From Rhodanobacter sp. Root480 (GTDB lineage: Bacteria > Pseudomonadota > Gammaproteobacteria > Xanthomonadales > Rhodanobacteraceae): 64,000 nt of DNA. The stretch is taken from the NCBI RefSeq assembly GCF_001426645.1, contig NZ_LMEX01000001.1, forward strand, positions 1,130,755 to 1,194,754, in the 5' to 3' direction. This document shows positions 19,037 to 31,567 of the stretch, in pieces (the stretch's first letter is position 1; each line of letters begins with the position of its first letter). The notes under the pieces are model-generated. The model was not told where the DNA came from. It ran no database searches and saw only the letters and a list, made by a program, of their open reading frames with translations. The translations under genes were made by a program, and so were the position numbers.

Positions 19037-20299
19037 CTACGCGCGACTTTGCGGATGCCGCACCTGGCCGTCCCCGCGCACCACGAAACGTTCGATAGTG
19101 AGCGACTCGGCACCCATCGGGCCGTAGGCGTGCAGGCGCGTGGTGGAAATGCCGATTTCCGAACCCAGCCCCAATTCGCCACCATCGGAGAAACGCGACG
19201 ACGCGTTGACCATCACCACCGCACTGCGCAGCGCGTGCACGAATGCGTCGGCCGTCCCCTGGTCGGTGGTGGCGATGACCTCGGTGTGATCGGAGCCGTA
19301 GCGGCGGATATGCGCGATGGCATCGTCCGCGCTATCCACCACACGAATGGCCAGGATCAGGTCGAGGAATTCGGCGGCGTAGTCGTCCTCGCTGGCGACG
19401 GCCATGTCCGGCACCTGCTCGCGGCTGCGTTCGTCGCCGCGCAGTTCGACACCGCGCTGGCGCAGCGCTGCCGCGGCCTTCGGCAGGAACTCGGCGGCCA
19501 CATCGCGATGTACCAGCAGCGTCTCCAGCGCGTTGCATACACCGGGCCGCGAAGTCTTGCCGTCGATCAGCAGATCCAGCGCGAGCGTGAGGTCCGCTGC
19601 CTTGTCCACGTAGAGATGGCAGACGCCCTTGTAGTGCTTGATCACCGGCACGCGCGCGTGTTCGGTGACGAAACGGATCAGGCCTTCGCCGCCGCGCGGG
19701 ATGGCCAGGTCGATGATGTCGGCCAGCTGCAGCAGTTCGACCATCGTCTCGCGGCGCAAATCTTCGACGAGAGTGACGGCCGCGGCGGGAATGCCATGCT
19801 TCTGCAGCGCCACATGCAGCGCTGCCGCGATCGCGGTGTTCGAATGCAGCGCTTCGGAACCACCGCGCAGGATCACCGCATTGCCGGCCTTCAGGCACAG
19901 CGCCGCGGCATCGGCGGTGACGTTGGGACGTGCTTCGTAAATCATCGTGATCACGCCCAGCGGAATGCGCACGCGCTCGATCGCCAGCCCGTTGGGCAGT
20001 TGATCGCGCCGCGTCACCTGGCCCACCGGATCAGGCAGGTCGGCCACCTCGCGCACGGCGTTGGCGATGGTCGCGACGCGCCCCGCATCCAGACGCAGCC
20101 GGTCGAGCATCGCGCCCTGCACGCCCTTGGCGGCGGCCTGCGCCATGTCCTTTTCGTTGGCGGCAAGGATGGTATCGGTCTGGCTGTCGATCGCCTGGGC
20201 CATGTCCAGCAGCAGCAGGCGCCGGGCAGTGTTGTCGAGCGCCGCGATGGCGGTGGCGGCGTCGCGGCAGGCCAGGGCCTGGGTACGGATGTCGCTCAT
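19037..20299 (-). CDS. proA: gamma-glutamyl phosphate reductase
   Basis: A 420-residue NADPH-dependent enzyme of the aldehyde dehydrogenase fold that reduces glutamyl 5-phosphate to glutamate semialdehyde in proline synthesis. The family segments [35 protein letters not shown] and the catalytic cysteine in [13 protein letters not shown] are all present, as is [17 protein letters not shown]. Its start overlaps the stop of proB1 by 4 bases, so the kinase and reductase, which act together on an unstable intermediate, are coupled. It is the last gene of the arg-pro run. Confidence 0.97.
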
Positions 20300-21474
20300 G
20301 CGTATTCTCCTGTCAGCAACCCGGTATCGCCCAGCGTGGCCAGGTCGTCGCGATGGACGACGTTTTCGCCATAGCTGTAACCGAGCCGGTCGCCGATGTC
20401 CCGGGTGTGGGTTCGTGCGATGCGATTGATTTCCGCCGCGCCATATTGCGCGATGCCGCGGGCGATGACGTGCAGCATGCCATCATCGCCGCCCGTGACG
20501 ATCTCGACCATGTCGCCACGCTGGAACATGCCATCCGCACGGATGATGCCCATGGGCAGCAACGATGCCCCCTCGCGCACGATGGCGTGCGCGGCGCCGG
20601 CATCGACGTGGATATGGCCCGTCACCGCCGGCATGTGCCGCAGCCAGTATTTGCGCGCATGCAGGCGGGTGGCGCTGGTATGCAGCAGCGTGCCGCGCAG
20701 CTGGCCGCGCGCAAGCAGGCTCACCACTTCGCTGTCGCGGCCGTTGAACAGCGCGGTCTGGATGCCCGCCGTCGCGGCTTTCTCCGCCGCCTCCAGCTTG
20801 GTACGCATGCCGCCCGTGCCTACGGACGATCCGGCGCAACCTGCCATCGCCATGATCCCGGTAGTGAGTTCGAGCACTTCGTTGACTGGCTCGGCATCGG
20901 GATTCGTGCGCGGGTCGGCCGTATACAGGCCGTCGATGTCGGTGGCGATCAGCAGCAGGTCGGCGTCGACCAGTGCCGCCACGATGGCCGCGAGATTGTC
21001 GTTGTCGCCCAGGGTGAGCTCGTCGATGGCCACGGTATCGTTCTCGTTCACCACGGGCATGATCTTGTAGTTGAGCAGCTCGCTCAGCGTGGCGCGCGCG
21101 TTGAGGTAGCGGCGCCGGTCGCGCAGGTCGTCATGGGTCAACAGCACCTGCGCCAGCGGATGGTCGAACAGGCGTTGCCACAACGCCACGGTCTGCGTCT
21201 GGCCCAGCGCCGCCATGGCCTGCCGGGCGGCATTGCTGGTGTCTTCGTGGGAATGGTCGCGCAGCATCAGGCGGCCGGCGGCGACGGCGCCCGACGACAC
21301 CAGCACGATCTCGCGACCGTCGGCGTGGCAGGCTGAAATGAATTGTGCAAGGCCCAGGGCGTAGCGCGTACTGAGTCCGCCAGTGTCGGCGGCGAGCAGG
21401 CTGCTACCCACTTTCAATACGGCGCGCCGCCATGGCGGCAGGGTTTGTGGTGTGAATGGTCGTGTCTGGGTCAT
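20296..21474 (-). CDS. proB: glutamate 5-kinase, copy 1
   Basis: A 392-residue enzyme that phosphorylates glutamate at the gamma carboxyl, the first step of proline synthesis. It has the amino-acid kinase domain ([57 protein letters not shown]) and a C-terminal PUA domain from about residue 290. The start has AGAGGACG upstream. It is coupled to proA. A second full glutamate 5-kinase gene lies 90 bases upstream; the two proteins are clearly homologous along their length but diverged. Confidence 0.95.
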
Positions 21475-21564
21475 CGTCCTCTACAAGTGGCCAAGGGAAA
21501 TGCAACGTCGTGAATCCCGCATTTTAACCGATGCCCGCCGAGGGGTCGGCGGGGTGACTTCCAG

Positions 21565-22734
21565 CTAGCGCTGCGGCAACGCATCGCCGGTGGCATCAGT
21601 GAGGGTCGCCATGTCGTCGCGGTGCACTACCTCGTCGCCATAGCTGTAGCCGAGCACGGTTTCAATCTCGCGGCTGTGCCGGCCCGCCAGGCGTCGCACC
21701 TCGGCGGCCGAGTACTGGCTCAACCCACGCGCCACCGATTGGCCGTCCATATCGATAATCTCGACCAGGTCGCCGCGATGAAACTCGCCCTCGGCTCCGG
21801 TCATGCCACCAGGCAGCAGCGAGGCGTGGCCGCCAGCCAGCGCGCGTGCCGCGCCTGTGTCGATACGGATGCTGCCGGGTGCGGCGGGCGCGTGACGCAG
21901 CCAGTGCTTGCGCGCATGCATGCGCGTGCTTGCCGCGGCAACAAGGGTACCGTGCAACACGCCATGCTGCAGCGCCTCTACCGTGGCGGCGTCGCGGCCG
22001 CTGAACAATGCGGTGGGAATGCCGGCGGTTGCCGCGCGCGCCGCCGCCTGCAACTTGGTACGCATGCCGCCGGTGCCAACCTTGCTGCCGCTGCCGCCGG
22101 CCATCGCCATGATCTGCGGGGTCAGGGCGGGAATCTGCGCGAACGGCACGGCATCAGGGTGATGCCGGGGATCGGCGCTGTACAGCGCATCGACGTCGGA
22201 CGCGATCAACAGCAGGTCGGCATCGACCAGGGTGGCCACGATGGCGGCCAGGTTGTCATTGTCGCCCAGCTTCAACTCATCCACCGACACGGTGTCGTTC
22301 TCGTTGATCACCGGCAACACATCCAGCGCCAGCAGCTCGCGCAAGGTGGCACGCGCGTTGAGATAGCGGCGGCGATTGCGCACATCGTCGTGGGTCAGCA
22401 GCACTTGGGCCACCGACTGCGACGCCAGCGATTGCCACAGCGCGATCATCGGCGCCTGCCCTAGCGCCGCCAGCGCCTGTCGCGCCGCGATATCCGGGCC
22501 CGCGCCCGACTTCGCCCGCAACATGGCCCGTCCGGCGGCCACGGCGCCCGAAGACACCAGCACCACCTGACGGCCCGCGCGATGGCTGGCCGCCATGAAA
22601 TCCGCCAGCGCGGCCGCGTACTGCGGCGTAAGCCCGCCGCCATCGGCCGCCAGCAGGTTGCTGCCGACTTTCAGCACGGCCCGCTTCCACGGGGGTAGCG
22701 GCTGGGCGGGCAAGCTTCGGGTTGCCGGATTCAT
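21565..22734 (-). CDS. glutamate 5-kinase, copy 2 (tandem paralogue)
   Basis: A 389-residue glutamate 5-kinase with the same kinase-plus-PUA layout as its neighbour: [42 protein letters not shown] and [15 protein letters not shown]. All motifs I can check are intact, so it is not an obvious pseudogene. By eye the two copies share well over half their residues. The start has GGGAAGCGAGCG upstream. Being uncoupled from proA, it may differ in proline feedback control or serve another pool; that is inference. Confidence 0.92.
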   Translation of the reverse strand: MNPATRSLPAQPLPPWKRAVLKVGSNLLAADGGGLTPQYAAALADFMAASHRAGRQVVLVSSGAVAAGRAMLRAKSGAGPDIAARQALAALGQAPMIALWQSLASQSVAQVLLTHDDVRNRRRYLNARATLRELLALDVLPVINENDTVSVDELKLGDNDNLAAIVATLVDADLLLIASDVDALYSADPRHHPDAVPFAQIPALTPQIMAMAGGSGSKVGTGGMRTKLQAAARAATAGIPTALFSGRDAATVEALQHGVLHGTLVAAASTRMHARKHWLRHAPAAPGSIRIDTGAARALAGGHASLLPGGMTGAEGEFHRGDLVEIIDMDGQSVARGLSQYSAAEVRRLAGRHSREIETVLGYSYGDEVVHRDDMATLTDATGDALPQR

Positions 22735-22891
22735 CGCTCGCTTCCCGACAGAACGATCGAGGTGGAACAGGCAAACATGCGGACGACCGGATGGACGCCT
22801 GGACGTCCATGATGCCGCATGCCCGCACGATGCAACGCCTTTGCCGAATGGACTGTGGACATCTCCCCTTCCCTCTCCATGCCGATCTTGT

Positions 22892-24187
22892 TCAGCCGCG
22901 TATGGCGTCGAGGCGCTGTTGCACCTGGTCGAGCTTCAGGTCATGGCCTGAACCGGGTGAGACGCGCGCTTCCAGGCTGGACTCGGGAGTGCGCCCGGCA
23001 CCGGCCGCGCTGGCGGCTTCGGCGGCGGCGCGATAGGCATCGCGAAACGGCACGCCAGCCGCTGCCTGCTCGATCGCCACGTCGGTGGCATACATCGACG
23101 GCTCGATCGCCGCGCGCATGGCCGGCTCGTTCCACTGGAAACGCGCCAGCAGGTCGGGCACCAGCTCCAGCGCCGACAAACCGTGCGTCACGCCATGAAA
23201 CAGCGAGCCCTTGGAAAACTGCAGGTCGCGCTGATAACCCGAGGGCAGCGACAGCAACTGCTCGATCTCGCAGCGCGCCGCCGCCACGCTGGCATAGCTG
23301 GCGCGCAGCAATTCGATCACGTCCGGATTGCGCTTGTTCGGCATGATCGAGCTGCCGGTGGTGTACTCGGCCGGCAGTTTCACGAAATTGAATTCGGCGG
23401 TGGTGAACAGCGACAGATCCCACGCCATGCGGCGCAGGTCCAGCAGTGCGCTGGCGATGGATTCCAGCACCGCCATCTCGAATTTTCCCCGCGACAGTTG
23501 CGCATAGACCGGCGACACCTGCATGCGGGAGAAGCCCAGCGCCTGCGTGGTGTGCGCGCGATCCAGCGGAAGATTCACGCCATAGCCGGCCGCGGTGCCC
23601 AGCGGGTTGGCGTCGATCCACACGGCGGTCTGCTGCGCGCGCAGCGCGTTGTCGGTGAAACCCTCGGCAAATCCGGCGAACCACATCGCGGTGGACGACA
23701 CCACGGCACGCTGCAAGTGCGTATAGCCCGGCAGCGGCAACGTCGGTTCCGCCGCACGATCCAGGCAGACCTGGGCGATGTCGTGGCACAGCGTCTGCAG
23801 CGTGGCCAGCTTTTCCTTCAGCCAAAGCCGGGTGGCCACCAGGATCTGGTCGTTGCGGCTGCGCCCGGTATGCACGCGGCGGCCGGCGTCACCGAGCCGT
23901 TCGGTAAGTCGCGCCTCGATCGCGGAATGGCCGTCTTCATGGCGCTCATCCAGCACGAACACACCGCTGCGGAAATCCTCGGCCAGCGCATCCAACTCGC
24001 GCTTCAGCGCCGCCGCCTCGTCCGCGCCGACCACGCCGATGTTCGCCAGGCCTTCCACATGCGCCTTGCTGGCGGTGATGTCATGCAGGAAAAACTCGCG
24101 GTCCAGCAACACGTCGTTGCCGGCCAGGAACTGCATGATCTTCGCATCGATCTTGATGCCGTCTTTTTGCCAGAGGGGCTGGGTCAT
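22892..24187 (-). CDS. argH: argininosuccinate lyase
   Basis: A 431-residue member of the aspartase/fumarase superfamily that splits argininosuccinate to arginine and fumarate. The conserved regions are [27 protein letters not shown] and the signature loop [12 protein letters not shown], which differs from the usual MPQKKNP form but keeps the catalytic serine. AGGA lies 11 bases before ATG 24187. It follows argC after 84 bases holding a REP-like hairpin and precedes proB2 by 157 bases in which I see no gene. Confidence 0.95.
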
Positions 24188-24200
24188 CGTAGGAAATCCT

Positions 24201-24277
24201 GTAGGAGCGCACCCTGTGCGCGATGGCTTGATGAGGCCTTGTGGAAGAGCTTTCGCGCACGGGGTGTGCTCCTACAC
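24201..24277. repeat. REP-like inverted repeat overlapping the argC stop codon
   Basis: The left part (from 24201) reads GTAGGAGCGCACCCTGTGCG and the right part (24254-24276) is its imperfect complement ending CTCCTACA. On the minus strand the TAG in TGTAGGAGC at 24274-24272 is the argC stop codon, so the repeat sets the argC C-terminus. Confidence 0.85.
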
Positions 24278-25225
24278 CGGTATGCCGGTGTACTCGTCCA
24301 CGCCCAGCACGCGGTTGATGTTCTGCATGGCCTGGGTGGCGGCGCCTTTCAGCAGGTTGTCCAGCGTCGCCACCACGACTACCCGCTTGCCATCGGCCGA
24401 GACCGCAAAACCGCCGACTTCGGCACGATGCGTGTGGGCCACGCGACTCACCCACGGCGCTTCGTCGGTGACATCCACCAGCTTTTCGCCGTCGTAGGCG
24501 GCGTGGAAGCGCGCCAGCACATCCTCGCGCTTCACCGAACGCGACAAGTACAGGTTGGTGGTGACGGTAAGCCCGCGGAAATGCGGTGCCACGTGCGGCA
24601 TGAATTCCACCGGCAGGCCGAGATGGCGACTGGCCTCCTTCTCGTGCATGTGGCCAGTCAATGCATACGGCATCAGGTTGTCGCGCAGCTTTTCCGGATC
24701 GTTCTTGTCCGACGGCGTGGTGCCGGCGCCGGAGTAACCCGATACGCCGAAGCACACCGGCGGCGCGGCCAGCAGATCCTTCAGCGGTGTTACCGAAAGC
24801 TCGATCGCGGTGGCATAGCAACCGGGGTTGCTGATGCGCTTTTCGCCGCGCCAGCGACCGCGGGTCAGCTCGGGCAGGCCATAATACCAATGGTCATCGA
24901 AGCGGTAATCCGCCGACAGGTCGAGCAGCAGCGTGTCGGGCCGGCTGGCCTCGATCGCGGCCACGTACGGCGCCGCCTTGCCATTGGGCAACGCCAGGAT
25001 CACCACGTCAGCCTTCTGCGCCGCCACGGCGTCGGCGTCGAGGCTGGCGTAGCGCAGCTCACCGGCAAAACCCTCGACGTGATCGGCCACGCGCTCGCCA
25101 TCGAGTTCGCGCGAGGAGACGAAGGACAGCTCCAGCGCCGGGTGCGCCGCGATGAGGCGGATCAACTCCATGCCGGTGTGGCCGCGTGCGCCCACGATGC
25201 CGATGCTCTTTTTTTCCGTGCTCAT
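24272..25225 (-). CDS. argC: N-acetyl-gamma-glutamyl-phosphate reductase
   Basis: A 317-residue NADPH-dependent reductase making N-acetylglutamate semialdehyde. The N-terminal Rossmann stretch [20 protein letters not shown], the catalytic cysteine in [15 protein letters not shown] and the segment [10 protein letters not shown] are typical. ATG 25225 overlaps the TGA of argB by 4 bases; an upstream in-frame ATG at 25276 lies inside argB and is rejected. Its stop codon falls within a REP-like repeat. Confidence 0.95.
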
Positions 25226-26544
25226 GATTCCCGATCCAGCAGTGTCGGCTGCCGCGTGGCGCAATGGGCCACGCAACGGCCGATGTCATCGAAATTGTCC
25301 AGCCCGTACCAGAACACCTTCCAGCGCTCCTGCTTGAGGCTGCCGTCGGACTCGGCGTAATAGAACGGGTTGATCGCGTTGCCGTGGCGCGAACGCCAGA
25401 ACAGCCGCGGATGCGCCTCGCGCATCACCTGCCACACGGCGCGACCCAGGCCTTCGCCCTGCGCGTCGTCGAGCACCGCGAATTTGTCGAGATACGGCAT
25501 ACCGCCCTCTTCGGTGAGGATCATCGCGGCGCGGTAATTCTCGCTGACGTAAACACAACGCGGCTTGGTGCGCTCGAAGTAGTCGGCCACCAGCATGCGA
25601 CCGAAACTGGACTCGATCAGCGCGCGCAGCCGATCCAGGTCGATGCCTTCCCACGAGTCGTATTTCAGGACGCGCTCACCGCGACGCACCAGCGTGCCCG
25701 AACCCTTGTGGGTGAACAGCTCCTTGGCCAGCTCGGACGGCCGCGTGATCGACACCGACGAGGTCAGCGGCAGGTCCGACAACAGGTCGGCGATCTGCTC
25801 GATCTTCAGCCGCATGCCGCCGTTGATCCACGGCTGCGCCATCAGGTGGTCGTACTCGGTGCTGAGGTTGATCGAATCGATCACCTTGCCCTTCTCGTCC
25901 AGCAAGCCGCCGGTGCCGGTGAGGAACACGATCTTGTACGGCTGCAGCACGCGCACCAGCTCGTTGGCAGCGAAGTCGGCGTTGATGTTGAGGATCTGCC
26001 CGCTCGGCGTTTCGCCGAGGCTGGCGATCACCGGGATCGAACCGGCACGCAGGCTGGCATCGATCGGTGCCAGGTTGATGCTGTCCACCTTGCCGACCAG
26101 GCCGTACACGGACTGATCCAGGTAGCTGGACGCGAACACGCCCGACGGCACCGAGGTGGCACGCGCGTCCATGCCTTGCAACGCTTCCACCAGCCGCAGG
26201 TTCTGCGCCTGGAACACCTTGCGCACGATTGCCAGCGCTTCGGGCGAGGTGACCCGCAGGCCGTTGACGGTCTCCTTCACGATGCCGGCGGCAGCCAGTT
26301 CCTCGTCCAGTTGCGGCCCGGCGCCGTGCAGCACGATCGGCGTCAAACCCACTTGCTGCAGGAAGGTCAGCGACGAGGTCAACGCGGACAGGTCGTCGCG
26401 CAGCACCGCGCCGCCGACTTTCACCACGGCAAAGCGCTTGGCGTCCAGCTGCGAGAAGCGCTTCAGGTACTGCTGAATTTCCTTCGCGCTGCCCATGCTC
26501 GAAAGCAGGCGCACGATGGTCTGACGGGTACTCTTGTTATGCAT
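25222..26544 (-). CDS. argB: bifunctional N-acetylglutamate kinase/synthase (fused ArgB-NAGS)
   Basis: A 440-residue fusion catalysing the first two arginine-specific steps. Residues from about 40 to 280 form the amino-acid kinase domain ([41 protein letters not shown]). From about 295 onwards lies a GNAT-type N-acetylglutamate synthase domain of the vertebrate-like kind ([38 protein letters not shown]). This bifunctional protein is known from xanthomonads. ATG 26544 overlaps the argE stop by 8 bases; a GTG two codons earlier is possible, and a much longer frame reaching 26874 is only an open antisense-type extension. Arginine feedback on such enzymes is known for the family. Confidence 0.95.
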
Positions 26545-27742
26545 TTCCACGATCGACGATCCGGTAGATGGTTTCTGCGTACTGCTGCAATTGGTCCAGC
26601 GCAACCCATTCGTCGGCGCTGTGCGCCTGGGCGATGTCGCCGGGGCCATAGACGAAGGCGGTATAGCCAGCGGCGGAGAACAGCGCCGCTTCGGTCCAGA
26701 AGTCCACCGCGTTGCCGACCGGGATACCCAGCTCGTCGGCCAGGTCGCGCGCGCGCAGGCGGCGCTCCTCGGCCCGCGCCGTGTCGCCTGCCGGCAGCGA
26801 AGGGCCGCGGAAGGTCTCCTCGAAATGCGCAGGCGCCGGTTCGGCCAAGGCGCGGAAGCTGTCCAGCAGGCCATCAGGCTGCATCGTGGGCAGCGGCCGC
26901 ATGCCGAAGCGCAGCTCGGCGCTGGGCGCGATCATGTTGGCCTTGATGCCGCCTTCGATACGGCCAATGTTGAAGCGCAGACCGGTGAGGCCGCCGAAAC
27001 GCTCATGCGACTGCGCGTCCACGAAATCCAGCGCCGCGTCACCCCAACGCACCGCCTGGTGCAGCGCGCTGTCGCTGGCCTTCTGCTCGCCTGACGCGTG
27101 GCCGGCATGGCCGGCGAAGCGCATCAGCACCGACTGGATGCCGCGATGCGCCAGCACGGCCTCACCCTTGGTCGGCTCGGCAATGATCACTGCTTGATAG
27201 CTCCCCTCTCCCTTTGGGAGAGGGGTCGGGGGAGAGGGTACGGCCGGAGTCATACCGTTCGCTCCACCCTCACCCCGACCCTCTCCCACAGGGAGAGGGG
27301 GAAAAGCACGGAGAAAACCCGCGATGCACCGCGGATCGTTGGCTTCCTCATCGGTGGAGAACAACAGCGCCATGTCGCCGTCGCTGGCATTGGCCACGGC
27401 CACCAACGCCGCCGCCGCGCCCTTGATGTCACAGGCACCAAGGCCGATCGCCCGATCCGACGTGACACGCAACGCATGCGGATCGGCCGTCCACGCCGGC
27501 GAATCCGGCACCGTATCCAGATGCACGTTGAACAGGTATTTCGGCGCGCCGCGCACGGCATGCAGGCTCACCGCGCCGGCGCCGTGATCGGTCACGGTCA
27601 CGTCGAAGCCGGGCAACTGAGCGCGCAGGTAATCGAAGATGCCGCCAGTGTCGACCACCCGCGGTGGGTTACGCGTGTCGAAACCCACCAGCGCACGCAG
27701 GTGCTCCAGCGTCGCCTCAAGCAGCGTATCGCTCTTGACCAT
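26537..27742 (-). CDS. argE: M20-family deacetylase, N-acetyl-L-citrulline (or acetylornithine) deacetylase, with repeat insertion
   Basis: A 401-residue zinc peptidase-like enzyme. Given the argF' upstream it should deacetylate N-acetylcitrulline to citrulline. Metal-site regions are visible: [27 protein letters not shown] and [11 protein letters not shown]. Between FLRAF and [19 protein letters not shown] sits about 35 extra residues rich in Pro, Gly and Glu ([12 protein letters not shown] ... [10 protein letters not shown]), encoded by a palindromic repeat at 27200-27303 and translated in frame. ATG 27742 is chosen; an in-frame ATG at 27763 would add seven residues derived wholly from a GGGAAT repeat that also ends argG. 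The gene overlaps argB by 8 bases. Confidence 0.88.
27200..27303. repeat. CCCTCTCCC-type palindromic repeat inside argE
   Basis: Two complementary composite arms, CCCTCTCCCTTTGGGAGAGG around 27204-27223 and CCCTCTCCCACAGGGAGAGG around 27280-27299, flank about 55 bases. Elements of this kind are common between genes in GC-rich proteobacteria; here the element lies within codons of argE and keeps the frame open. Confidence 0.88.
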
Positions 27743-27772
27743 TCCCGATTCCCTATTCTCCATTCCCGGTCC
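27741..27772. repeat. GGGAAT-type repeat arm at the argG-argE junction
   Basis: The plus strand reads as a series of ATTCCC units (ATTCCCGATTCCCTATTCTC and on). On the minus strand it encodes the last residues and the TAG stop (27755-27753) of argG and the two possible argE starts (27763 and 27742). Confidence 0.8.
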
Positions 27773-29012
27773 TGTTGACCTCGGCCCACAGCGTGCTGCT
27801 CATGCCGAACAGCTTGATGAAGCCTTCCGCCTCTGCCACGCCCCAGTCGGCCGACTGCGCATAGGTGGCGCCCTTGGCGTTGAGGATGTGCTTCGATTCG
27901 ATCGCCACCGCGTTGACCACGCCGCCATGCGTCTCCAGCGTCACTTCGCCATTGACGGTGGACTGGCTGGACGCAAGGAATGCTTCCAGGTCGGTCTTGA
28001 TCGGATCGTGGAAGAAACCCTCGTACACCACCTCCACCCACTTGCGCGCCACATCGGGCTTGAAGCGGTTCTGCTGCTTGCTGAGCACGGCTTCTTCCAG
28101 CGCGCGGTGTGCGGTCAGCAGCGAAATCAGGCCGGGCGCTTCATAGATGATGCGGCCCTTCAGGCCGATGGTGGTGTCGCCGGTGTAGAGGCCGCGACCC
28201 ACGCCGTAGGGCGCGAACAGGGCGTTCAATTTCGCCAGCAGCTTGTGGCCGGCGATCTTTTCGCCGTTCAGCGACACGGCTTCGCCATGCTCGAAGCCGA
28301 TCTTCACCTGCAGCGGTTTGGACGGCCATTCGGCGCGCGGCTTGCACCAACCCACCGCACCTTCGCCCGGCGCCTGCCACTTGTCGATCTCGCCGCCGGA
28401 CATGGTCAGGCCCAGCAGGTTTTCGTTGATGGTGTAGGCCTGCTGCTTGGCGCGCACGCCGAAGCCGCGCTCTTCCAGGAAGGCCTGCTCGTAGGCGCGC
28501 GTCTGCGTGTGTTCCTTCTGGATCTCGCGGATCGGCGCCACGATCTCGTAGTCACCCAGCGATTTCACCGCCAGGTCGAAGCGCACCTGGTCGTTGCCCA
28601 TGCCGGTGCAGCCGTGCGCGATGGCGCGCGTACCCAGCTCGGCGGCGCGCTTCAGCGCGGCCTCCACGATCAGGTAGCGGTCGGACACCAGCAACGGGTA
28701 CTGGCCCTGGTAGCCCTCGCCCGCCCATACGAACGGCTTGACGAAGCCGCTCCAGATCGCGGGGCCGCCGTCGACGGTGACGTGGCTGGCCACGCCCAGC
28801 TCCTTCGCGCGGTTCTCGATGAAGGCGCGCTCCTCGGCGTCCACACCGCCGGTGTCGGCGAACACGGTGTGCACGGCCCAGCCGCGCTCCTTGAGGTAAG
28901 GCACGCAGAAACTGGTGTCGAGGCCACCGGAGAAGGCAAGCACGATGTGCTTGCCTTCTCCGGTGGCGGGAATGGGGAATGGGGAATGGGGAATGGTAGA
29001 AGCGTTCGACAT
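27753..29012 (-). CDS. argG: argininosuccinate synthase with repeat-derived N-terminal extension
   Basis: A 419-residue ATP-dependent enzyme joining citrulline and aspartate. The PP-loop motif [33 protein letters not shown] and GGEIDKW are intact. The PP-loop normally starts a few residues from the N-terminus; here about 20 residues precede it, encoded by a run of ATTCCCC heptamers and one arm of a 21-bp perfect palindrome (28923-28967). The only usable start is ATG 29012, preceded by CAGGAAAACC, so the extension is probably translated. The last residues and stop also come from a repeat. Function should be retained. Confidence 0.93.
28923..28967. repeat. 21-bp perfect palindrome at the argG PP-loop
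   Basis: Arms 28923-28943 and 28947-28967 are exact reverse complements around a 3-base loop. On the coding strand the downstream arm encodes the conserved VLAFSGG and the upstream arm encodes part of the N-terminal extension (ATGEGKH), so the upstream arm looks like an inverted copy of the conserved one. Confidence 0.9.
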
Positions 29013-29105
29013 AATGGTTTTCCTGAAAAATGCGGACGTAGCAAAAACAGACGAGTTACGAAAAGCTGCTCTGGACGATTCCCTATTCCCGATTCTCTAT
29101 TCCCG
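28968..29105. repeat. GGGAAT-type element spanning the OsmC-argG junction
   Basis: The left arm (28968-28996) holds four GGGAATG heptamers, the right arm (29078-29105) the complementary ATTCCC series; about 80 bases lie between. The element contains the argG start codon, its ribosome binding site and the stop codon (29099-29097) of the OsmC-like gene. Confidence 0.75.
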
Positions 29106-29570
29106 GCTCACAACAATGCGCGGTTCGCAGCGCACCGGGAAATTCACGGAATTGGCAATGAAACAGGCATGGTGGGCCGACTCGTGAGCCGCTTCGGCCT
29201 TGGCTGCATCGCTGGCCGCGCTGATCGTGACGGTGGGGCGCAACACCACTTCGACGAAATGGCCGCCATCCCCTTCCATGGCCATGGTGCCCTCAGCCGC
29301 ATCGACATAGCCCGTCACCACCACACCGGCCACCGTCGCCATGTGGAGGTAGGACAGCATGTGGCAGGTCGACAAGGCGGTGACCAGCATGTCCTCGGGG
29401 TTGTGCTTTGCGGCGTCGCCCCGGAAGCTCGGGTCGGACGACCCGGCCAGCGGCGGCTTGCCCTCGATACGGATGACGTGGTCGCGACTGTAGTTGCGAT
29501 AGCCGTCCGTGCCGCTGCCGAGGTTGCCGGTCCATTCCACGTCGACGCGATAGTGATGCTGATGGTTCAC
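29097..29570 (-). CDS. OsmC family protein
   Basis: A 157-residue OsmC/Ohr-fold protein: NPEDMLVTALSTCHMLSYLH carries the first conserved cysteine and ESAHHACFIANSVNFPV the second, the pair used for peroxide reduction in this family. The start is GTG 29570, overlapping the upstream stop by 4 bases (GTGA). Its last residues and stop come from a GGGAAT repeat. It lies between argF' and argG, co-directional, with no evident biochemical link to arginine. Confidence 0.87.
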   Translation of the reverse strand: MNHQHHYRVDVEWTGNLGSGTDGYRNYSRDHVIRIEGKPPLAGSSDPSFRGDAAKHNPEDMLVTALSTCHMLSYLHMATVAGVVVTGYVDAAEGTMAMEGDGGHFVEVVLRPTVTISAASDAAKAEAAHESAHHACFIANSVNFPVRCEPRIVVSRE

Positions 29571-30190
29571 GATGCGGATTCCTCGCGTTGGTTCATCATG
29601 GCGGCCAGTTCCACATCGCCATCGCCGTCGCGCTGGCGCAAGCCGGCGATCACCCCTTCGCGGTTGCGCGCGGGATGGTTCTGGCTGAGCTTGAACTTGC
29701 CTTCGATGCGCTCGATCGTGACTTCGATACCGACGATCGCGCCCAGCAATTTCTCGACGTGATCCTCGGGCGCATCGCGGATTGTCCATGGCAGGGGCTG
29801 GCCGGATTCATGGTGATCGGTGAGCGCTTCCAACTGGCGGCGAACCCATGCCTCGTCGTCAACCACGCGAAGCCGGCCGTGCACGTGCACCACGGTGTAA
29901 TTCCAGGTCGGCACTTCGCGCCCGGTCTCGTGCTTGCTCGGATACCAGTTCGGGCTGATATAGCCCTGCGGCCCCTGGAACACCACAAGCACCGGGGCGC
30001 CATCCATCGCCACCAACTCGTTGCCACGGGCGACATGTGCCTGCAGCGCGTCGCCGTTCCATTCGAACGGCAGATGGTTTGCCGCCAGCCCGCCCTGCGC
30101 CTGCACGACCACGGTGGCGAACGGATAGGCACGAACCAGATCGCGCAGGACCTCGCTGCGTGTTTCGCGAAATGACTTGGGCGCGTACAT
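29567..30190 (-). CDS. FMN-binding negative transcriptional regulator, PaiB family
   Basis: A 207-residue PaiB-like split-barrel flavoprotein: MYAPKSFRETRSEVLRDLVR, NHLPFEWNG, GPQGYISPNWYPSKHETGREVPTWNY and the C-terminal EGKFKLSQNHPARNREGVI, all typical of the family. PaiB was described as a repressor in Bacillus, though the biochemical role is unsettled. It starts 10 bases after argF' and is coupled to the OsmC-like gene, so both would be expressed with the arg genes. Confidence 0.88.
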   Translation of the reverse strand: MYAPKSFRETRSEVLRDLVRAYPFATVVVQAQGGLAANHLPFEWNGDALQAHVARGNELVAMDGAPVLVVFQGPQGYISPNWYPSKHETGREVPTWNYTVVHVHGRLRVVDDEAWVRRQLEALTDHHESGQPLPWTIRDAPEDHVEKLLGAIVGIEVTIERIEGKFKLSQNHPARNREGVIAGLRQRDGDGDVELAAMMNQREESAS

Positions 30191-30200
30191 GGTGGTTGGC

Positions 30201-31208
30201 TCAGCCCTGGCCGATCAGCGAGGCCATGACCGCCTTCTGCACGTGCAGGCGGTTCTCGGCTTCATCGATGGCGATGCATGCGGGCGAATCCATCACCGCA
30301 TCGGTGGCCTTGATGTTCCGCCGCAACGGCAGGCAATGGCTGAACAGGCCGTTGTTGGTCAGCGCCATCTTCGCTTCGTCGACGATGAAGTGCTTGTTGG
30401 CTTCGCGGATGGGCTTTTCCTGCTCCCAGCGACCGAAATAAGGCAACGCGCCCCAGCTCTTGGCGTAGACCACGTCGGCGCCGCTGTAGGCCTCTTCGAT
30501 ATTGTGACTGACCTTGAGCGAGCCGCCGTTCTGCTCCGCGTTCAGACGTCCATACGCCATGTAGCGCTCGTCCAGCACGTAATCCGGCGTGGGGCACAGC
30601 AACGTGACGTCCATGCCCATCTTGGTGGCGATCAGCAAGGCGGAGTTCGCCACCGCGGTGTTCAGCGGCTTGGGATGGTAGGTCCAGGTCAGCACGTACT
30701 TCTTGTTCTGCAGGCTGCCCAGGTGTTCCTTCAGCGCCAGCGCATGCGCCAGCTCCTGGCAGGGATGGGTGATCGTTTCCATGTTGATCACCGGCACCTT
30801 GGCGTATTGCGCGAATGCCTTGATCACGGTGTCCTGGCGGTCCACCGCCCAGTCCTGGAATTTGGGAAACGCGCGCACGGCGATCAGGTCGACATAGCGC
30901 GAAAGCACGCGCGCCACCTCGGCGATGTGCTCCTCGGTGTCGCCATCCATCACGCTGCCGACTTCGAACTCGATCGGCCACGCATCCTTGCCCGGCTGCA
31001 ACACCACGGCATGCCCACCCAGCTGGAACGCACCCAGTTCGAAGCTGGTGCGCGTGCGCATCGAGGGGTTGAAGAACAGCAACGCGATCGACTTGCCGGC
31101 CATTTGCTGCCCGCCGGGCGAGCGCTTGAATTCGGCGGCTTGGGTCAGCAGCGCGTCGATCTCGGCGCGGCTGTAATCCTGGGTGGTCAGGAAATGTCGA
31201 GGTGCCAT
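30201..31208 (-). CDS. argF': N-acetylornithine carbamoyltransferase
   Basis: A 335-residue transcarbamylase that makes N-acetylcitrulline from N-acetylornithine and carbamoyl phosphate. The carbamoyl-phosphate motif SMRTRTSFELGAFQLGGHAV, the DAWPIEFE loop that sets acetylornithine specificity in the Xanthomonas enzyme, HPCQELAHALAL and the proline-containing HPKPLNTAVANSAL loop distinguish it from ordinary ArgF. ATG 31208 has AAGGT about 10 bases upstream; an open extension to 31271 would cross the upstream terminator and is rejected. It is the first enzyme gene of the arginine run, behind a putative attenuator. Confidence 0.95.
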   Translation of the reverse strand: MAPRHFLTTQDYSRAEIDALLTQAAEFKRSPGGQQMAGKSIALLFFNPSMRTRTSFELGAFQLGGHAVVLQPGKDAWPIEFEVGSVMDGDTEEHIAEVARVLSRYVDLIAVRAFPKFQDWAVDRQDTVIKAFAQYAKVPVINMETITHPCQELAHALALKEHLGSLQNKKYVLTWTYHPKPLNTAVANSALLIATKMGMDVTLLCPTPDYVLDERYMAYGRLNAEQNGGSLKVSHNIEEAYSGADVVYAKSWGALPYFGRWEQEKPIREANKHFIVDEAKMALTNNGLFSHCLPLRRNIKATDAVMDSPACIAIDEAENRLHVQKAVMASLIGQG

Positions 31209-31269: not shown

Positions 31270-31298
31270 AAAAACCCGGCACGAGGGCCGGGCTTTTT
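31270..31298 (-). terminator. intrinsic terminator in the argF' leader (attenuator)
   Basis: On the minus strand CCCGGC-CCTCGT-GCCGGG is followed by TTTTTG; the opposite side also has a T run, so it can work both ways. It lies 62 bases before the argF' start and 32 bases after the stop of the Arg-rich leader ORF, the place of an attenuator terminator. Confidence 0.82.
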
Positions 31299-31340
31299 CG
31301 TCTATCCGCATAATTAACGTGCGCGACTGCCTACCCGGCC
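31286..31340 (-). promoter_or_regulatory. candidate antiterminator pairing for the arginine attenuator
   Basis: GGCCGGG at 31340-31334, which forms the last codons of the leader ORF just before its TAG, is exactly complementary to CCCGGCC at 31292-31286, the 5' arm of the terminator. Pairing of these two would prevent the terminator stem. A ribosome halted at Arg codons would leave GGCCGGG free; a ribosome at the stop codon would cover it. This is inference from sequence. Confidence 0.6.
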
Positions 31341-31471
31341 GAAAGTCGGTACCGCGGTCGGCGCGCGCGCGACGTCATGCCAGCGGCCATGCGGGCGCTG
31401 GTGAGGACGTTGGCGGTATAGACGGCTATGGACATGCGCGGAAATCGGTGATCAGCGTTGAACATGAACAT
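31331..31471 (-). CDS. putative arginine leader peptide
   Basis: A short ORF of up to 46 codons (ATG 31471; other in-frame ATGs at 31435, 31390 and 31378) ending 123 bases before argF'. Its last part reads MTSRARRPRYRLSAG: five arginine codons in eight (CGC, CGC, CGA, CGG, CGA) at 31346-31369. It is followed by an intrinsic terminator. No strong ribosome binding site is visible before any of the starts, which is the weak point. A possible promoter, TTGCAA and CATCAT 17 bases apart, lies at about 31502-31474, which would favour an internal start. Confidence 0.6.
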   Translation of the reverse strand: MFMFNADHRFPRMSIAVYTANVLTSARMAAGMTSRARRPRYRLSAG

Positions 31472-31544
31472 GCATGATGGCGGGAATTTCGCTGCCTTGC
31501 AACAAAAATCTGCCGCCAGCCGCACACGCGATGCAAACGAATAC

Positions 31545-31567
31545 GCCGCCCGAAGGCGGCGCATTCC
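31545..31567 (-). terminator. terminator-like hairpin after the glycine-zipper gene
   Basis: On the minus strand GCCGCC-TTCG-GGCGGC, followed by GTATTCGTTT, lies 20-40 bases past the stop of the gene at 31585. The T-run is weak. From here to the argF' leader ORF no other gene is seen. Confidence 0.5.

Follow-up and report, generated by a model that had tools for sequence, protein, structure and literature searches.

A predicted ribosome-mediated arginine attenuator ahead of the argF' operon in Rhodanobacter and related bacteria

In Rhodanobacter sp. Root480, the arginine biosynthesis genes headed by argF' are preceded by a short leader that is very probably a ribosome-mediated transcription attenuator, sensing arginine through charged tRNA-Arg. 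This reading is drawn from sequence elements, covariation, predicted folds and the lack of a detectable ArgR repressor. The locus lies in a 64,000-nucleotide (nt) stretch of contig NZ_LMEX01000001.1, called the window here. All coordinates are window positions, and the leader, the terminator and the arg genes are on the minus strand. An attenuator of this type had been put forward in a preliminary description of the window, and the comparative checks support it: in relatives, the run of arginine (Arg) codons, the terminator and the alternative pairing with covariation all gave positive results.

In the attenuators of the his, trp, leu and thr operons, a leader open reading frame (ORF) rich in cognate codons is combined with alternative hairpins (1:2, 2:3 and 3:4) and an intrinsic terminator. 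The argF' leader has the same layout. A short ORF, in which synonymous changes dominate, lies between a predicted promoter and the first gene and carries a run of codons for the end product, Arg; an intrinsic terminator follows ahead of the first gene. Prediction and covariation indicate an antiterminator that excludes the terminator and would become available when the ribosome stalls on the cognate codons. The elements of the leader are the following.

31497-31502, minus strand: predicted -35 hexamer TTGCAA, by consensus match
31474-31479, minus strand: predicted -10 hexamer CATCAT, spacer 17, by consensus match
31331-31435, minus strand: leader ORF of 34 codons plus TAG, MSIAVYTANVLTSARMAAGMTSRARRPRYRLSAG, its start placed by conservation at ATG 31435
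31358-31396, minus strand: conserved peptide block A-R-M-A-A-G-M-T-S-R-A-R-R, whose last codon, Arg CGA, is the presumed stall site
31315-31377, minus strand: 1:2 protector hairpin (RNAfold), formed between the Arg codons and the sequence surrounding and following the stop
31333-31340, minus strand: antiterminator strand 2, GGCCGGGT, overlapping the last leader codons and the stop
31286-31293, minus strand: strand 3, GCCCGGCC, common to antiterminator and terminator
31270-31292, minus strand: intrinsic terminator CCCGGC-CCTCGT-GCCGGG-TTTTT, with a 6-bp GC stem, loop CCTCGT and T5
30201-31208, minus strand: argF', N-acetylornithine carbamoyltransferase, first gene of the arg cluster; best solved relative 3kzc, an N-acetylornithine carbamoyltransferase (E 5.9e-186); Pfam OTCace_N and OTCace

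The C-terminal part of the leader peptide, MTSRARRPRYRLSAG followed by the stop, is encoded at 31378-31331. It holds the five Arg codons in eight that had been noticed earlier (CGC, CGC, CGA, CGG, CGA), two CGA and one CGG among them. The terminator was likewise found as described, and it ends 61 nt ahead of the argF' ATG at 31208. The short leader ORF is present but longer than thought, since MTSRARR... is not its start. The distance of 32 bases given from the stop to the stem applies to the A-tract preceding the stem; the stem itself is 38 nt away. The complementarity of the leader end to the 5' arm of the terminator was confirmed, as GGCCGGGT and GCCCGGCC pair over 8 bp including one U-G.

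In the proposed mechanism, RNA polymerase would start near 31467 and a ribosome would translate the leader. At low arginyl-tRNA the ribosome would stall in RARR, with the slow CGA at 31360-31358 as the likeliest site. The footprint of the stalled ribosome would end before GGCCGGGU, which could then pair with GCCCGGCC; the terminator would not form and the operon would be transcribed. With plentiful arginine, the ribosome would reach the UAG inside GGCCGGGUAG and cover this strand, and the terminator would form and stop transcription. An untranslated leader would also allow the terminator to form, with the strand of Arg codons pairing with strand 2. The conserved nascent peptide A-x-G-M-T-S-R-A-R-R possibly helps to hold or tune the stall. 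We infer the stalling, its place and the sign of the response.

The regions upstream of argF' were taken from 80 named loci, 120 further loci of the order and the window. The named loci belong mostly to Rhodanobacter, Dyella, Frateuria and Luteibacter, with one Fulvimonas and some metagenome-assembled genomes. In a draw of 150 genomes, 136 had a match (14 were left out, four were already in the set). Four f12 loci were dropped as unplaced by the script, and 197 loci including the window, in families labelled f1-f12, were analysed. The f1 loci partly duplicate named loci, L133 and L037 for example being apparently one genome; therefore, locus counts do not equal species counts.

The motif MTSRARR (ATGAC.TC.CG.GC.CG.CG.) is present in all 135 f1-f4 loci, which give 112 distinct sequences over 75 nt. 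The residue before its M is G in 110 of these and S in two. The leaders of f5 and f7-f11 differ and contain Arg runs such as RRRR, RRLRRP and VVVRRRRP. Across the order, an ORF with at least three Arg in eight codons adjoins a terminator in 179 of the 197 loci. The best-ORF script picks the conserved block in 126 of the 135 f1-f4 loci and a wrong frame or a more Arg-rich ORF in the other nine, so the figure of 179 counts loci and not correct peptides. Outside f1-f4, 33 of the 45 loci with a terminator and an ORF reach p <=0.05 against dinucleotide shuffles (mean Arg 4.3 vs 1.5). The script also missed one of 21 f8 loci (L200, with only 150 nt of sequence) and two of 11 f9 loci (L207, L209). 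In the latter two, Arg leaders are visible and were missed probably because the terminators are poorer in G+C.

At the genome level, 43 of 60 genomes carry a single copy of the motif, always on the same contig and strand as argF' and 112-403 nt upstream of it (compared by eye). The f1-f4 genomes lacking it are G010, in which no argF' was found, and G034, in which argF' is cut at a contig end. Among 276 genomes of the class, the motif was found in four of the order and one other, G340. In G340 it is not in the nearby rpsB-like coding frame, and this occurrence was taken as chance.

Folded as a whole, the 215-nt leader gains only a modest advantage over shuffles (z -1.36), and the case therefore rests on comparison. 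Folding was performed for 123 of the 135 f1-f4 loci; the other 12 were dropped by the script for want of a strand 2 or of an in-range terminator. With ribosome footprints of an assumed size masked, helices of at least five pairs were obtained for 2:3 in 122 of the 123 loci and for 3:4 and 1:2 in all of them. The antiterminator score was matched by at most 5% of shuffles in 114 of 133 f1-f4 loci and in 27 of 36 other loci with at least four Arg.

Terminator and leader also change together in f1-f4. CCCAGC terminators occur with leader GCTGGG in 23 of 23 loci, and CCCGGC with GCCGGG in 98 of 107; outside these two groups, one locus has the core CCCGG with GCCGGG, two have no terminator by the script and two have another core. 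Alignment A1 comprised 46 distinct sequences: 20 selected from the named f1 loci, 25 from the set of 30 f2 loci, and that of the window (outside it are L347, L362, L365, L370 and L366, the last without a terminator by the script). The antiterminator pair 42-108 is U-A in 22 sequences, C-G in 21, U-G in two and unpaired in one. The terminator pair 108-119 follows it (G-C 24, A-U 22), and the antiterminator covariation score was reached by none of 500 shuffles. This covariation is one position common to three strands and is inflated by relatedness. The f9 family has a different solution to the same switch: leader TCTTTGG pairs with CCAAAGA of the terminator arm and loop, and not only with the stem, in six of the nine f9 loci tested (L212, L216, L217, L221, L224, L232).

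Several observations weigh against an arginine attenuator or limit its range. In f10, at least three Arg are found in nine of 22 loci and two Arg in one; in the other 12, which have none, and in the single f6 locus, the script finds no leader with a terminator. The switch is thus not universal, and these families are also without an ArgR match. The loci leaderless by the script are L122, L128, L201-L205, L211, L213, L215, L219, L220 and L226. The ribosome-free fold pairs at least five of the six strand-2 bases in just 74 of 123 loci, and the antiterminator misses the 5% level in 19 of 133 f1-f4 loci and 9 of 36 others. The CCCAGC terminators of f8 (n = 13) are accompanied by GCTGGG in eight loci, by GCCGGG in three and by neither in two; those of f10 have neither in five of six. 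The f1-f2 antiterminator helix has only one pair with frequent two-sided change, and 18 of the 46 A1 sequences lack pair 39-111. Shuffles match the number of changed antiterminator pairs in 33 of 500 cases and the pair types in 37 of 500; for the terminator, these values are equalled by 349 and 500 of 500. The leader had been said to lack a clear ribosome-binding site, and no Shine-Dalgarno sequence was seen before it by eye. A codon-only attenuator leaves the fixed A, G, M, T, S and A unexplained.

The choice of Arg codons is also regular. Counting the M as 0, block codon 6 is CGA in 110 of the 112 distinct f1-f4 sequences, while codons 3 and 5 are CGT or CGC in all, barring one CGA at codon 3. 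In 11 genes of the window, by comparison, CGA makes up 7 of 268 Arg codons. The Arg runs of 43 loci from the other families comprise 189 codons; CGC, CGA and CGT together account for 178, and CGA by itself for 56. Passages of PMC4046918 on the Salmonella his leader describe CGA as read slowly and Arg-Arg pairs with CGA as strongly relieving his attenuation. They also agree with CGT, CGC and CGA being served by a common tRNA.

Substitutions were counted by parsimony on the argF' tree for 81 Rhodanobacteraceae loci including the window. Codons -3 to +7 (AAG-MTSRARRP) underwent 72 synonymous and no nonsynonymous changes. The following codons 8 to 12 had 15 synonymous and 94 nonsynonymous changes; codon 13 had one change, and codons 14-15 are invariant. 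Further upstream, codons -15 to -9 had 54 and 26, respectively (omega about 0.22). In the f2 set, consisting of the 30 best of 45 genomes, the block is present in 30 of 30. The synonymous to nonsynonymous counts here are 22:0 for codons 0 to 6, 41:3 for -3 to 6, 13:17 for -8 to -4 and 11:86 for 7 to 12, and Pro stands at codon 7 in 24 of 30. The regular expression for the motif fixes residues 0-6, yet it missed no locus.

Threonine leaders of f2 were used as the control. Thr/Ile-rich leaders were found in 18 of 20 f2 loci before the aspartokinase gene (L295, L300, L323-L332, L335-L340), and 11 of the 18 have the anchor VRxVVF, 10 of these being from genomes in the arg set; the other seven were dropped for lack of the anchor. 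In these 10 f2 genomes, the 12 residues before VRxVVF show 49% identity. The arg block in the same genomes shows 96%, or 94% without the Arg positions. A pure codon counter should, to judge by this comparison, resemble the variable thr leaders. The non-cognate residues of the arg leader are not free to vary as in a codon-only attenuator, and conserved residues stand directly N-terminal to the presumed stall site as in arrest peptides. Constraint ends at the presumed stall codon, as expected of a nascent chain that plays a part from within the tunnel. The substitution pattern shows, unexpectedly, that the leader peptide itself is under selection, not the Arg codons alone, and the nascent chain may take part in the stall.

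No his or thr leaders were found in the genus of the window, in a search where hisG loci on the other strand were unturned and the aspartokinase locus was maybe not thrA; the f1 loci inspected likewise yielded no threonine leader. A second TSRARRP peptide near hisG was an artefact of loci on the other strand, the peptide being antisense within hisG. In L267, L274, L276 and L281, a small gene that is TrpR/YerC-like by eye precedes the his genes, with the palindrome-like GTATTAACGCATTAGTACAT before it. None of these loci showed a His leader, and the TrpR/YerC-like protein may therefore serve in his control.

The GMTSRARR families may possess a hybrid sensor, in which the fixed nascent peptide slows peptidyl transfer at the slow CGA and a small drop in tRNA-Arg charging results in a long stall. 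We regard this as a serious possibility that stays short of probable. If true, the order would be a natural one-locus series, with leaders that simply count an Arg run (VVVRRRRP, RRLRRPGF) at one end and attenuation assisted by the nascent chain at the other, in lineages that gave no ArgR match.

The sequence is fixed up to RARR and constraint then ends abruptly, as is expected of arrest peptides past the stall site. The leader could accordingly be read as an arrest peptide sensing free arginine, like the fungal arginine attenuator peptide (AAP), or ornithine, like SpeFL, with the metabolite stalling the nascent-chain complex at RARR(P). This is very unlikely, because distant families use plain Arg runs and other sequences. 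Moreover, under the assumed footprint, a stall at codon 6 leaves strand 2 free for 2:3 pairing. An arginine-induced stall would then switch biosynthesis on with arginine, which is the wrong sign.

The peptide might also be conserved through action in trans, of itself or of the terminated leader RNA, attenuation being additional. The amino-acid-level selection at codons -15 to -9 in f1 is consistent with this, and peTrpL/rnTrpL of Sinorhizobium is a precedent (PMC7298713, in part). However, the f2 N-terminus varies (codons -8 to -4), and constraint stops at the presumed stall codon, which makes a trans role rather improbable.

ArgR control is usual in Gammaproteobacteria. By that standard, the operon could be regulated at its promoter, by ArgR or a different DNA-binding protein, with a minor role left to the leader. 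The ArgR family PF01316 was detected in two of 60 and five of 150 genomes of the order, all of them f12 (the 150-genome draw held five f12). It was found neither in the window's genome nor in any of the 145 genomes outside f12, by a search that finds E. coli ArgR; other repressors, including any unrelated to ArgR, were not searched for. Control mainly at the promoter thus has a slight chance of being correct. In the five f12 genomes, argF begins no more than a few codons from where an argD-like frame (named by eye) stops, which leaves no room for a leader. The 350 nt upstream of carA contained no recurring Arg-rich ORF (22 of 25 loci with a readable carA start), with at most two Arg in eight codons in the window's genome (L244). 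A carA Arg leader was rejected: the values of 4-5 in L237, L240, L242, L256 and L257 come from unrelated peptides without a common motif, no shuffle test having been applied.

For the attenuator proposed here, the promoter and the start of translation are predicted as follows. The element TTG-N16/18-xAxxxT precedes the leader start in 72 of the 81 Rhodanobacteraceae loci including the window, as found by consensus matching with no shuffle control; a stricter scan listed no promoter. The distance from this element to the start is 23-26 nt in 68 of the 81 loci and 38 nt in the window. In-frame ATGs further upstream, at 31465 and 31471 in the window, are GTG in R. fulvus L031. The start codon is 6-10 nt past the element in 19 of 23 f2, 3 of 3 f3, 3 of 3 f5 and 6 of 6 f10 loci with at least four Arg. 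Leaderless or nearly leaderless RNAs are therefore predicted in these four families. The f8 family is mixed, with 5 of 15 close; in f9, two of nine are at 6-7 nt and five at 25-26; in f4 one of six is close, and in f7 and f11 none.

The neighbouring features are given below.

31542-31563, minus strand: terminator-like hairpin behind the preceding same-strand gene
19037-30190, minus strand: genes after argF', in order FMN_bind_2, OsmC, argG, argE, NAGS-kinase, argC, argH, proB, proB and proA (domain scan; gene names by eye)
19037-20299, minus strand: proA, assigned by eye with no domain scan

T-tracts flank the hairpin ahead of argF' on either side, and G+C-rich DNA abounds in CGN codons. The hairpin might then do no more than terminate the preceding gene, or work in both directions, and high G+C could have produced the Arg-rich ORF by chance. 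This is scarcely credible, as the preceding gene has its own terminator-like hairpin, and the synonymous/nonsynonymous pattern, the covariation and the single genomic occurrence all speak against chance. Owing to that hairpin, the argF' genes probably need their own promoter in 31541-31436.

The argF' gene and those down to proA probably form one operon, for which we infer co-transcription. The argF' product is 99% identical to its R. fulvus Jip2 counterpart. The argF' and argG genes are separated by a PaiB-like FMN_bind_2 gene and an OsmC-like one (29097-30190, minus strand), and a tandem proB-like pair with AA_kinase and PUA domains lies ahead of proA (20296-21474 and 21565-22734, minus strand). 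Palindromes such as GCGGATCCGTCCGC and CCGGCCATCCATGGCCGG occur between the terminator and argF' in several Rhodanobacteraceae (L034, L066) and are possibly elements like repetitive extragenic palindromes (REP).

Full-text searches of open-access papers brought up no arginine attenuator of an arg operon, though older or subscription papers may hold one. The words 'arginine', 'argF' and 'argG' are absent from the main text of the attenuator survey PMC2965389. The X. campestris arg operon is described in PMC1865377, where 'ArgR' and 'repress' are absent from the main text. P. aeruginosa carAB is said in part of PMC4997734 to have a leader peptide and possibly attenuation. The leader has no NCBIfam or Pfam match, and an Rfam scan of the window at gathering score gave only tmRNA and tRNAs and no leader family. 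The mechanism is of the his/trp kind. As far as the search of open-access papers reaches, it is new in amino acid, operon and breadth, and it is a variant through the conserved peptide. ArgR is the usual explanation in Gammaproteobacteria; in an order nearly without ArgR in the sampled genomes, and mostly with a predicted arginine attenuator, the leader offers a testable account of pathway control. The fixed peptide makes it possible to ask whether a single switch can combine codon counting and nascent-chain arrest, and the sister families provide natural controls. Annotation of this small ORF in many genomes could also draw on the conserved block.

The his, trp, leu and thr attenuators of Proteobacteria have the same cognate-codon leader, alternative hairpins and intrinsic terminator before the first biosynthetic gene. 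The argF' leader differs from them in its amino acid, in a peptide fixed beyond the cognate codons (block identity 0.96 vs 0.49 for thr) and in the start 6-10 nt past the predicted -10 box in several families. T-boxes bind tRNA directly and have no leader peptide; arginine T-boxes are likewise RNA-level control of arginine genes (named in PMC1262725). The speF leader orf34, or SpeFL, of Salmonella and E. coli is described in parts of PMC6386406. Like the present leader it has 34 codons and a conserved core with consecutive Arg codons, and the ribosome pauses on it under low arginine. However, it controls ornithine decarboxylase via Rho, access to the ribosome-binding site and RNase G, and not through an intrinsic terminator of arg genes. 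Three argF' leaders, including that of the window, gave no Pfam match at E up to 10, and the SpeFL family (DUF2618, PF10940) belongs to Pfam. In Staphylococcus aureus, the rare-Arg-codon leader rbfL likewise senses arginine limitation, but it blocks translation initiation of rbf and does not control biosynthesis (PMC13009471, in part). In passages of PMC7298713, trpL/peTrpL of Sinorhizobium meliloti differs in concerning tryptophan and in having a reported role in trans, while its leader RNA starts at the start codon of the leader ORF, as is predicted here in several families.
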